Shown here one piece after another: positions 23,473 to 34,629 of a DNA stretch of 58,901 nt (positions are counted from its first letter, which is position 1; each line of letters begins with the position of its first letter). The notes below the pieces were generated by a model, which did not search any database, was not told the DNA's origin, and saw only the letters and a program-made list of their open reading frames with translations. The position numbers were made by a program, and so were the translations under genes. The stretch is from a virus. Where the stretch lies: positions 1 to 58,901 of IMG/VR virus record IMGVR_UViG_3300025632_000005; one strand, written 5' to 3'.

Positions 23473-24068
23473 TTTTTATCTCCTTTGTTAAAGATTTATA
23501 TTTATGAAAGACTGTCAATTTTTTGACATTCAAAATAGTCAGTCCTTCAATTGTAGACTAATTCAAATCTCGAAAAATGTCAAGTTTTGAATTATCGACC
23601 ACTTGAAACCCACGGAATCCGTGCATTCCTAGGGTGTTCTATTTTTGTTCTTTTGATTCTGAATCGTGCAACTTATTAATTTAATACTTATTATTCTCTT
23701 TTTCCCCTTTTATGATTTAGGTACATAGCTATCATACGCAGAAGAGTAGTAACAATTTAGAATGATTCTAAGTTAGGACACATACCCACCGAGAACACCC
23801 CTAATACATATGTCAAGTTGTATTTATGCAACAAATACATAGCTAATTTGCTAACAAAAAACCATAAAGACCAGGGACTTATGTGATTTACTTGGCGAGA
23901 AAAAAGTTGCAATCGGTCGAATTTTCGAGTATCGTTGAAAAATCTGGGAAATTTCGCAAAATTCTGCATATGTTTCTTAGATATGATAATAACTTATACA
24001 CTATTCTAGGGCATCTAGATTTTCTTCCCAATTCAGTTCTAGGATAGTGTACTAACAAAGGAGACGAC
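23473..24068. promoter_or_regulatory. 596-base control region with divergent promoters and palindromes
   Basis: No convincing gene. Features: TGTCAA-TTTT-TTGACA (about 23513-23528), an inverted repeat that places -35-like TTGACA boxes on both strands; another minus TTGACA near 23580; palindromes CACGGA-A-TCCGTG (about 23612) and TTAGAAT-G-ATTCTAA (about 23757); and a leader stem CACTATTCTAG (23999-24009) with CTAGGATAGTG (24040-24050) just before the ribosome site of the first early gene. Likely operator/promoter hub. Exact start sites cannot be set. Confidence 0.5.
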
Positions 24069-24341
24069 ATGACTAATTTAATTATGGTTCGTAAAGACTT
24101 TGAAGCATTAGCATCTAATTGGATTGACGATGAAGAGAGATATTACTCAGAAAGTTGTCACGATATTATGGCTGATGTTAGTTACAAGAACTGTGAGTAT
24201 CATAAGAAACTTGCCAAAGGAGAGATAAAGCCTTTTGAAATTCCCACAAGTAAGCTAGCCGATGGATACGATTATACTCATCTTAGACATCTAGAGGATT
24301 ACTTTAGCCAAGAACAATTCTATAACAAAGGAGATAACTAA
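24069..24341 (+). CDS. early hypothetical protein
   Basis: 90 residues. It is the first gene of the dense early run and has the 12-base leader AAGGAGACGACA that recurs before two other unit-leading genes. Sequence is acidic with ASNWIDDEERYYSESCHDIM and DYTHLRHLEDYFSQEQFYN. No known domain. The stop overlaps the next ATG by one base. Confidence 0.6.
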   Translation: MTNLIMVRKDFEALASNWIDDEERYYSESCHDIMADVSYKNCEYHKKLAKGEIKPFEIPTSKLADGYDYTHLRHLEDYFSQEQFYNKGDN

Positions 24342-25839: not shown

Positions 25840-26060
25840 TGGAACTAGAAACATTGGGCGATAAGGTATCAGATATATTTGATGCTATTGGTCGAATTGA
25901 AACTAAGCTTGAAGAGTTGGAAGACAAGATGGATGATGTCGAGTCTCAACTAACGGCTAACTTTGAAGGGATGTTAGATAATATTCGCAGTTGTATCGGA
26001 GACGATATTCAATCTGCCGTATCTGATATCAACTCGAACATCGACCGACTGAAAGACTGA
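25839..26060 (+). CDS. small coiled-coil protein
   Basis: 73 residues with continuous heptads (FDAIGRIETKLEELEDKMDD), acidic, ending in a polar DINSNIDRLKD helix. AAGGAGG ribosome site. Likely a dimer or trimer that binds a host protein. Last gene before the promoter and leader RNA at 26061-26190. Confidence 0.55.
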   Translation: MELETLGDKVSDIFDAIGRIETKLEELEDKMDDVESQLTANFEGMLDNIRSCIGDDIQSAVSDINSNIDRLKD

Positions 26061-26088
26061 TTGACTTTCGCTAGATTAATTATATTAT
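26061..26088 (+). promoter_or_regulatory. sigma70-type promoter
   Basis: TTGACT (26061-26066), 16-base spacer, TATTAT (26083-26088). It begins right after the stop codon of the coiled-coil gene and would start a transcript a few bases before the large hairpin, so the hairpin would be its 5' leader. Confidence 0.6.
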
Positions 26089-26090
26089 AG

Positions 26091-26189
26091 TTAGTCTAGT
26101 GGGGTAGTGATTTTTAATTTCCTTTGTTACACTATCCCACTAGCCTAACTATTAAGTTGGCATAGTTAGGTGACTTAACCCAAGCCAAC
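26091..26189 (+). ncRNA. candidate structured leader RNA (hairpin, alternative hairpin and pseudoknot)
   Basis: A 19-position stem joins 26091-26109 (TTAGTCTAGTGGGGTAGTG) to 26130-26148, with one G-U pair and one mismatch. A second perfect 9-bp stem joins CCTAACTAT (26144-26152) to ATAGTTAGG (26162-26170) and shares five bases with the first, so the two compete at their junction. The loop of the second holds GTTGGC (26156-26161), which pairs perfectly with GCCAAC (26184-26189), an H-type pseudoknot just before the ribosome site at 26192. It may be a riboswitch, attenuator or stabilising 5' element; no known class recognised. Confidence 0.55.
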
Positions 26190-26205
26190 ACAAGGAGACG
26201 ACAAT

Positions 26206-26418
26206 ATGTCACAAGCACAAAAAGATATGTTCAGAGAACAAGAACTGAACGAGATAGGTTTAGCTATCTCTAAAGCTGATGGTGATTGTCTAAGTGAGAT
26301 CATGAGTAATGTTCTCAAAGACAGAAGACTATCCCTTGTTACTGAGGAAGAAGTCGAAGAGATGGTTAGAGAATATCTAAACGACCAAGCCATGCAATAT
26401 GGATATTGGGGGTCATGA
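26206..26418 (+). CDS. small acidic early protein behind the structured leader
   Basis: 70 residues, helical and acidic (MFREQELNEIGLAISKADGD, TEEEVEEMVREYLNDQAMQY). Ribosome site is the shared AAGGAGACGACA leader. It is the first gene downstream of the hairpin/pseudoknot leader, so it is the likely regulated target. Function unknown. Confidence 0.55.
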   Translation: MSQAQKDMFREQELNEIGLAISKADGDCLSEIMSNVLKDRRLSLVTEEEVEEMVREYLNDQAMQYGYWGS

Positions 26419-26869: not shown

Positions 26870-27198
26870 CAAAAGCTACAAGCTTTACACTCGAACAACT
26901 AAACCAAAAGCAACAAGAGGTACACAATCTTCAGATGCGATTGAAGAGGTGCATTAAAGAGCGAGATGCTCTTAAAGAAAAAGCACCTACTAGAATGTAT
27001 CGTTATGTTGTAACTGAGACTGTGATAAGTGAACGATGGTTCGAGGCTCACTCTGATGCAGATGCTCAACAAGAGTTACAACGAATGAGAGATGGCGCTA
27101 TCGATTGGGACTTAGAACAACACGATTCTGAGGTAGTAGATGAAACATTATACTACTGTCCAGATAGTGGTGAGGGTCACGAGGAGGTGGAGATATGA
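26866..27198 (+). CDS. early hypothetical protein with N-terminal coiled coil
   Basis: 110 residues. Residues 8-42 are a coiled coil (LEQLNQKQQEVHNLQMRLKR); the C-terminal half (YRYVVTETVISERWFEAHSD) is a small beta-alpha unit ending in an acidic tail, similar in style to phage accessory proteins. Overlaps the methyltransferase gene by 4 bases, suggesting a shared job or regulation. Confidence 0.5.
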   Translation: MTKATSFTLEQLNQKQQEVHNLQMRLKRCIKERDALKEKAPTRMYRYVVTETVISERWFEAHSDADAQQELQRMRDGAIDWDLEQHDSEVVDETLYYCPDSGEGHEEVEI

Positions 27199-28025
27199 AA
27201 CACAAACTACTAGATTTATTTTCTGGCATCGGTGGGTTCTCTCTTGGTGCAGAGGCTAACGGCATACCAACTGTAGCCTTTGTAGAGAAAGACCCATTCT
27301 GTCAGAAAGTATTACGTAAACATTGGAGTAACACACCAATCATATCTGATATTAGAACAGTGAAAGGAGAAGATTATGAAACAGATGGAGTTACAATTGT
27401 CAGTGGAGGATTCCCATGCCAACCATTCTCAGTCGCAGGGAAACAAAAAGGAACAGATGACGACAGATACCTCTGGGATGAAACTATTAGAGTCGTTGCC
27501 GAAACAAAACCAGAATGGTTTATTGGAGAAAATGTTGACGGAATTGTTAACATCCAAGACGGCATGGTACTCAGACAAGTGCAAGATGACTTGGAGAAAG
27601 AGGGTTTCCAAGTCCAATGTCTTGTTGTTCCGGCTTCAGGCATCGGTGCTTGGCACCAAAGAAAAAGAGTCTGGATCATTGGACACAATGTATCCAACAC
27701 CATCGGCGAGTTGTCAGATGGATGTAGTGGCACCACCAGACACAGTGAGTCAGAACTCAAAGGGATGGTCAGTGACGAGGCTAAAAACTGGAACAAAGTT
27801 TGGAGCGAAACTAAACGATGTAGTGAACAAACTAAATCCTGGTGGCAAACTGAATCCAAACTTCGTGGAGTTCCTCATGGGATATCCTACGAACTGGACA
27901 AAGATAGAGCCAATCGAATAAAGGCACTTGGTAATTCCATAGTGCCACAGATTGCCTATCAATTATTTAAATCAATAGTAACTGTAACAAAGGAGGACAA
28001 TCATGAGCAAGTCTATTGGTGCTAA
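27195..28025 (+). CDS. dcm: DNA cytosine-5 methyltransferase
   Basis: 276 residues. Motif I LLDLFSGIGGFSLG, motif IV GGFPCQPFS with catalytic Cys75, motif VI FIGENVDGI, motif VIII QRKRVWIIGH, motif X IKALGNSIVPQIAYQ are all present in order. The target-recognition part between VIII and X is short (about 70 residues). It methylates cytosine in phage or host DNA, probably to escape restriction; no partner nuclease is next to it. A 181-codon frame with its own ribosome site lies fully inside this gene. Confidence 0.9.
   Translation: MKHKLLDLFSGIGGFSLGAEANGIPTVAFVEKDPFCQKVLRKHWSNTPIISDIRTVKGEDYETDGVTIVSGGFPCQPFSVAGKQKGTDDDRYLWDETIRVVAETKPEWFIGENVDGIVNIQDGMVLRQVQDDLEKEGFQVQCLVVPASGIGAWHQRKRVWIIGHNVSNTIGELSDGCSGTTRHSESELKGMVSDEAKNWNKVWSETKRCSEQTKSWWQTESKLRGVPHGISYELDKDRANRIKALGNSIVPQIAYQLFKSIVTVTKEDNHEQVYWC
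27376..27921 (+). CDS. overlapping +1-frame ORF inside the cytosine methyltransferase gene
   Basis: 181 residues from ATG 27376, preceded by AAAGGAG with a 6-base gap. It shares all its DNA with dcm in the +1 frame. Its middle (WYSDKCKMTWRKRVSKSNVL, LFRLQASVLGTKEKESGSL) and C-terminus (NPGGKLNPNFVEFLMGYPTN, then W-T-K) resemble proteins I know from other phages as the overlapping frame of dcm, and the LNPxFVExLMGxPxxWT ending is itself a known C5-methyltransferase tail. I infer a true second product, but homology needs a search. Confidence 0.5.
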   Translation: MKQMELQLSVEDSHANHSQSQGNKKEQMTTDTSGMKLLESLPKQNQNGLLEKMLTELLTSKTAWYSDKCKMTWRKRVSKSNVLLFRLQASVLGTKEKESGSLDTMYPTPSASCQMDVVAPPDTVSQNSKGWSVTRLKTGTKFGAKLNDVVNKLNPGGKLNPNFVEFLMGYPTNWTKIEPIE

Positions 28026-30384: not shown

Positions 30385-30539
30385 TTATATATAGTTATCT
30401 AGAGATATATATAGTTATAAGAGATATATATAGTTATAAGAGATATATATAGTTATAAGAGATATATATAGTTATACGAGATATATATAGAACTAGCATT
30501 AGACTAACACTAGACTAGTATTAGACTATATATAGTCCC
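30371..30539. repeat. AT-rich tandem repeats, candidate replication origin
   Basis: Four exact head-to-tail copies of the 19-base unit AGAGATATATATAGTTATA fill 30401-30476, with partial copies on both sides (TATATATAGTTATATATAG before, GAGATATATATAGAACTAG after). Then come related ACTAGACTAGTATTAGACTA blocks and the palindrome GACTATATATAGTC (30525-30538). It sits between the HNH nuclease and the primase-helicase promoter. Iteron-like AT-rich DNA beside primase fits an origin or a replication-enhancer; it could also be an early operator array. Confidence 0.6.
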
Positions 30540-30618: not shown

Positions 30619-30652
30619 TAGGGCAAGACCCGCAAAAATAAGGAGACGACAT

Positions 30653-34125: not shown

Positions 34126-34629
34126 ATGCCAGTAATTTCAGGCACTGCTTATTGGGCGAAAGTCCACCAACCACATTACGATCAATACAATGAACAAGGT
34201 ATCTTTTCTATTGACGTAGCAGTGGATTCAAAGACTAAGAAACAACTACAAGATTTGGGTCTTGGTCCTCGTATTAAAAACAAGGGTGACGAGAGAAATG
34301 ATTTCGTTACTATCAAAAGAAAGTACACTCGTAAGGATGGTACAAAGAACTCTGCACCTCGTGTTGTAGATTCTAAGAAGACACCAATTAGTCCTGATGT
34401 TTTAATCGGCAATGGCTCACAAATTAATGTAGCTTTTGATACATACGATTATAATGTCGGTGGTAACCAAGGTGTTGGCTCATCTTTAAAAGCTGTACAA
34501 GTAACTAAACTAGTTGAGTACAGTCCTTCTGAAAACTTAGATGAGTTCGGTGAAGAGTCTGGATACCAGGCTCCAACTAACGGAGCAACTAAGAAAGATG
34601 GATTGGAAGACGAAACACTTCCATTCTAA
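34126..34629 (+). CDS. T7 gp2.5-like single-stranded DNA-binding protein
   Basis: 167 residues. OB-fold pattern (ISGTAYWAKVHQPHYDQYNE, GIFSIDVAVDSKTKKQLQDL, QINVAFDTYDYN) and an acidic C-terminal tail ending DETLPF, the aromatic-terminated tail that in gp2.5 contacts polymerase and helicase. Own promoter and AAGGAG, as expected for an abundant protein. Directly followed by recombination nucleases. Confidence 0.75.
   Translation: MPVISGTAYWAKVHQPHYDQYNEQGIFSIDVAVDSKTKKQLQDLGLGPRIKNKGDERNDFVTIKRKYTRKDGTKNSAPRVVDSKKTPISPDVLIGNGSQINVAFDTYDYNVGGNQGVGSSLKAVQVTKLVEYSPSENLDEFGEESGYQAPTNGATKKDGLEDETLPF

Follow-up and report, generated by a model that had tools for sequence, protein, structure and literature searches.

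A pseudoknotted mRNA leader ahead of unrelated early genes in a group of uncultured marine-type phages

In an uncultured marine-type phage we found an intergenic region with the features of an mRNA leader, a 5' hairpin and then an H-type pseudoknot beside the Shine-Dalgarno (SD) sequence, and comparison with related phages shows both stems of the pseudoknot to be maintained by compensatory change. The same leader stands before unrelated genes in different phages. Our preferred reading, which we consider probable from the sequence comparisons, is that it is a generic cis-acting leader that would serve the stability and translation initiation of an early-gene mRNA, whichever gene follows. Phage mRNA leader pseudoknots are rarely documented, and what is new here is one that is absent from Rfam, has covariation support and comes from an uncultured marine-type phage group.

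The window, by which we mean the whole stretch of DNA analysed, is an IMG/VR virus record of 58,901 bases whose DNA polymerase shares 42% identity with its counterparts in the Pelagibacter phages HTVC115P, HTVC104P and HTVC103P. The leader region (26061-26205, plus strand) is intergenic, with a 73-aa ORF ending at 26060 on its left and a 70-aa ORF starting at 26206 on its right. Pfam and PHROGs gave no match for the 70-aa protein or for several of its neighbours. The features of the region and its surroundings are as follows.

26061-26088, plus strand: sigma-70-type promoter, with -35 TTGACT (26061-26066), a 16-nt spacer and -10 TATTAT (26083-26088)
26071-26099, no strand assigned: dyad CTAGATTAA / TTAGTCTAG across the -10, a candidate repressor operator
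26087-26094, plus strand: ATAGTTAG, outer 5' arm of the long stem, overlapping the end of the -10 and the discriminator
26096-26143, plus strand: hairpin H1, a 14-bp stem CTAGTGGGGTAGTG / CACTATCCCACTAG with a 20-nt loop holding TTTCCTTTG
26144-26170, plus strand: pseudoknot stem S1, 9 bp and perfect, CCTAACTAT (26144-26152) with ATAGTTAGG (26162-26170); loop L1 is TAA
26156-26189, plus strand: pseudoknot stem S2, 6 bp, GTTGGC (26156-26161) with GCCAAC (26184-26189)
26171-26183, plus strand: loop L3, with the conserved AACCC
26192-26197, plus strand: SD AAGGAG, for the start codon ATG at 26206
26192-26202, plus strand: AAGGAGACGAC, an 11-mer start-associated sequence (the SD plus ACGAC)
26206-26418, plus strand: downstream gene, 70 aa, ATG at 26206
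27195-28025: cytosine methyltransferase, in the neighbourhood of the 70-aa gene
34126-34629: SSB-like gene (identified by eye), about 8 kb downstream of the leader

Compensatory change in both pseudoknot stems

Relatives were gathered from IMG/VR with four queries, namely the 70-aa protein, the 73-aa protein, a stem pattern and a promoter pattern. They comprise about 25-26 related contigs with 17 distinct full leaders, and all of them form one genus-like group. Two further candidates (L036 and L153) were dropped as spurious pattern matches.

An earlier note on this DNA had proposed a structured leader RNA with a pseudoknot beside the SD, built from a 9-bp stem and a 6-bp loop-to-3' pairing, and had named a lack of compensatory changes in related sequences as a result that would count against it. 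Both stems are present exactly where it placed them, the region 26061-26205 has a folding z-score of -6.0 relative to shuffled sequences (0/200), and when the relatives were examined, compensatory changes were found in S1 as well as S2, so the structure survived. In S1 there are three compensated pairs (C-G to U-A, A-U to G-C and U-A to G-C), a level of compensation reached in 0/500 shuffles. S2 comes in two allelic forms, GUUGGC/GCCAAC (8 leaders) and UCGGUG/CACCGA (9 leaders), which differ on both sides at five of the six pairs and are fully paired in all 17 sequences; when the alleles are combined crosswise as a swap control, just 3-4 bp can form. MAFFT misplaces the 3' arm of S2 by 1 nt in one allele, and for this reason the S2 pairs were counted from the parsed sequences. 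Over the relatives the geometry is that of an H-type pseudoknot, with an S1 of 9 bp, an L1 of 3-5 nt, an S2 of 6 bp stacked directly and an L3 of 12-13 nt in which AACCC is invariant. The element belongs to this class as two crossing helices, each with compensatory change.

The pseudoknot is convincing through this comparative evidence, and less striking from the single sequence. Shuffled loop and flank pairs give a 6-bp S2 in 1.9% of cases, about 0.37 H-type pseudoknots of equal size are expected per shuffled genome, and in the window a nested hairpin closed by S2 rivals S1 in energy. The distance from S2 to the SD differs between phages (2 nt in the window, 9 nt in L015, about 1 nt in L024), so a strict occlusion of the SD by S2 is not a conserved feature.

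Each relative searched carries the pseudoknot leader in one copy per phage, and a model-based search turned up no further copy of the pseudoknot within a phage. The leader was not found in more distant phages (helicase 39-48% identical), and a DNA search of annotated phage records returned no similar sequence. Cellular genomes gave five matches, in unrelated bacteria, to the hairpin only and without the pseudoknot, and these were judged to be chance.

Unrelated first genes and related leaders

Behind the pseudoknot leader we observed two unrelated genes, the 70-aa gene or, in other phages, a gene of 107-109 aa. Since the same leader precedes unrelated first genes, these sequences make autoregulation by the first gene product, in the style of gp32, unlikely; in a T4 gene 32-type leader the element would precede the gene coding for the protein that binds it, whereas here the leader stays constant and the first gene is replaced by an unrelated one, and the SSB-like gene lies about 8 kb away, downstream.

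The start-associated sequence AAGGAGACGAC has exactly three copies in the window (24058, 26192 and 30640), each at a start: that of the gene behind a second leader, which we call leader A, that of the gene behind the pseudoknot leader, and that of the helicase-primase (start 30653). Most relatives have it twice, and the helicase copy is retained in nearly all. In the window the helicase-primase copy (30640-30650) is accompanied by a TTGACA promoter, itself conserved, and by a leader that is short and has little structure. Just 5' of that promoter we noted AT-rich tandem repeats at 30386-30528 (19 bp x 5.5, then 11 bp x 3.4), a possible replication origin. Leader A is the leader of the first gene in the rightward operon.

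23998-24068, plus strand: leader A, with a 5' hairpin ACACTATTCTAGG..TCTAGGATAGTGT, a pyrimidine loop and then AAAGGAGACGAC before the ATG at 24069

It is conserved in about 24 contigs and has two compensated stem pairs, and its loop is UUUCCUU in nearly all of them (UUUUCUU in the window, UUUCCUC in L015). At least 10 unrelated first genes stand behind leader A in different phages, with nearly every phage group having its own, and its locus (23998-24068 in the window, loci L002-L155) looks like a place where small early genes are exchanged. Taken together, the sequences place the pseudoknot leader in a set of early-gene leaders. Two weak model matches (L016 7929-8017 and L022 20-85) lie some 4 kb upstream on the other strand, where a TTGACT promoter is followed by a 12-bp hairpin and then a leftward gene, and these elements may be a further leader of the same set. 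The operon's first gene in L131 is preceded (185-262) by a stem of unrelated sequence that nevertheless carries the pyrimidine loop of leader A, TTTTTTCCTTCCC, with AAAGGA as the SD.

Complementarity between loop and SD recurs in both the pseudoknot leader and leader A. The pairing of UUUCCUU with AAGGAGA is no better than that of shuffled pyrimidine-rich loops in most sequences (p 0.04-0.57), so that pairing of the SD with the H1 loop is suggestive and is offered as a lead only.

These observations bear on whether the pseudoknot is a ligand- or protein-responsive switch that would gate the SD, either as a riboswitch-like aptamer or as the site bound by a translational repressor. A switch of this kind would fit a pseudoknot adjoining the SD, the conserved L3 nucleotides and H1 loops with UCCU(U) that are partly complementary to AAGGAGA, but this last feature is the one that shuffled loops largely reproduce, and the unrelated downstream genes speak against both a pathway-specific ligand and autoregulation by the first gene. 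Rfam also argues against it: at the gathering cut-off no family was matched anywhere in the window, and a permissive search returned low-scoring unrelated models only, mostly microRNA hairpins. The riboswitch suggested in the earlier note is not established, with no Rfam family found and the element sitting before unrelated genes, and the fold belongs to no known riboswitch class. We regard a ligand- or protein-responsive switch as a minority prospect, though it fares best among the alternatives to a generic leader.

Promoter, 5' hairpin and the longer stem

Matches resembling TTGACT-16-TATTAT are no commoner than in shuffled DNA (5 found, 5.2 expected), and for this reason the promoter call rests on conservation. 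The promoter sequence TTGACTTTC and the -35 are invariant across the 17 leaders, and the -10 (TATTAT, TATGAT, TATCAT or TACCAT) holds TA..AT in 16/17 at a spacing of 16-17 nt; L015 has TATAAT 17 nt from the -35, about 3 nt closer to the hairpin. Transcription is predicted to start at about 26093-26098. A covariation test of the dyad across the -10 gave chance level (32/500 shuffles). By eye, the 3' end of the 73-aa ORF (26028-26060, ATCAACTCGAACATCGACC) is near-invariant among the relatives, synonymous positions included, unlike the remainder of that ORF, which diverges, and this end may belong to the promoter control region. The single terminator-like call in the region, at 26066-26104, was rejected as an AT-rich artefact spanning the promoter. 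There is no U run after 26152 of the sort that marks an intrinsic terminator, in agreement with the earlier view that the region is not a simple terminator.

The H1 stem is identical in 16/17 relatives, with a loop that varies in sequence and in length (19-26 nt). Even L015, whose neighbouring proteins are 33-56% identical, keeps the inner 14-bp stem letter for letter, and L055 has one A.C mismatch in H1 and one in S1. Because the stem hardly varies, it shows almost no covariation, and something other than pairing may be what preserves its sequence.

Conservation of H1 in sequence, beyond pairing alone, is one of several observations that would be explained if the block acted mainly as DNA, a repressed early promoter with operator repeats whose hairpins would be by-products of protein-binding sites. 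There are CTAGnCTAA half-sites at 26071, 26091 and 26140, the -10 dyad is perfect in L007 and L024 and altered on both sides in L015 (one compensated pair), conservation reaches back into the 3' end of the 73-aa ORF, and the ESAS elements of cluster K phages provide a precedent of promoter-holding repeats without RNA pairing (PMC3203893, PMC11373665). However, the window has no excess of CTAGnCTAA (48 found, 57 expected), the changes in S1 and S2 track RNA pairing, including crossing pairs for which an operator has no need, and a promoter operator accounts for nothing at 26150-26189. On balance we think it unlikely that the block is chiefly a DNA element.

The earlier note had also described a 19-position stem, with one G-U and one mismatch, that competes with S1. 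The stem is present and longer than that, with arms at 26087-26109 and 26130-26152 and 23 positions, and it consists of the 14-bp core plus an outer 8 bp that uses 26087-26094. Since this outer arm lies within the -10 and discriminator, the local transcript should lack it and, judging from the predicted start, probably does. Covariation of the outer pairs was no better than chance (32/500 shuffles), and with one strand in the -10 and discriminator the competing stem is not supported in the form described. Competition between the long stem and the pseudoknot could apply to read-through RNA alone; there the long stem would be favoured energetically according to the folding model, so a switch between the two set by the start site is possible.

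RNase III cuts between early genes of phage T7, and in parallel the 22-bp stem of a read-through RNA might be cut here, the pseudoknot then being a stabilising 5' structure of the product, or more simply a 5' stabiliser. The arms of 23 positions with one mismatch make about two helical turns, and the presence of leader A upstream implies read-through. On the other side, the covariation of the outer pairs is not above chance and a local promoter makes processing needless for generating the 5' end, and we are doubtful of this explanation to about the same degree as of the DNA-level one. That the pairing arose by chance in AT-rich intergenic DNA, a reading for which the expectation in shuffled genomes could be cited, is extremely improbable, being already refuted by the compensated pairs in both stems, the swap control and the conservation of 17 distinct leaders.

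Proposed function and comparison with known systems

As a generic leader, the region would be the 5' untranslated part of an early-gene mRNA in which the 5'-terminal 14-bp hairpin would protect the 5' end and the pseudoknot, whose position corresponds to the upstream portion of the 30S footprint, would either set translation initiation or gate it. Given a constant leader and a first gene that changes between phages, a controller common to phages or hosts (the ribosome, an RNase or an RNA-binding protein), or none at all, seems likelier than the product of the first gene. RNA reading through from upstream would contain 26087-26094 and could form the 23-position stem, which would deprive S1 of its 5' strand and so confine the pseudoknot largely to RNA begun at its own promoter. 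A bolder version, which we put forward tentatively and think less likely than not, is that constant structured leaders (a hairpin with or without a pseudoknot, and a shared extended SD) might be plug-in cassettes for ever-changing early genes, with one phage or host factor reading all of them and thereby placing these genes under a single control at the RNA level. The leader pseudoknot is tied to genome positions of early-gene swapping, which gives a searchable RNA signature for variable early genes, and the two natural S2 alleles are material for a clean compensatory test.

One similar system is the gene 32 leader of phages T4, T2 and RB69, whose mRNA also has an H-type pseudoknot 5' of the ribosome site. 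In T4 the pseudoknot serves a single gene and nucleates the cooperative coating of an unstructured A+U-rich tract by gp32, and a 2010 review considered T4 gene 32 possibly the sole viral example used in translational autoregulation (PMC3014915). The pseudoknot described here, in contrast, follows a 5' hairpin, lies 2 nt from the SD in the window and precedes unrelated first genes. The preQ1, SAM-II and similar H-type pseudoknot riboswitches and the rpsO (S15) operator likewise place a pseudoknot near the SD, but unlike them our element has no Rfam match, no known ligand consensus and no related pathway gene behind it.

For T4 gene e, soc and I-TevI, whether an inhibitory structure forms depends on the start site (PMC3014915). 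Our leader resembles these in that a strand of the alternative fold lies within the promoter region, so that read-through and local RNA would fold differently; here the overlap of 26087-26094 with the -10 and discriminator goes with a start that is predicted only and with outer-helix covariation at chance. The gene e type pairs the SD or AUG in the read-through RNA, whereas no SD-covering helix is established here.

The SAS/ESAS of cluster K mycobacteriophages, in which a promoter and an inverted repeat with a variable spacer precede genes of different families (PMC3203893, PMC11373665), are unrelated in sequence and similar in kind. AAGGAGACGAC is a start-associated sequence like theirs, a conserved SD-containing repeat, longer than the 16S pairing, found at several early starts. 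The difference is that ESAS repeats are without RNA pairing, whereas the leaders described here pair and add a pseudoknot.
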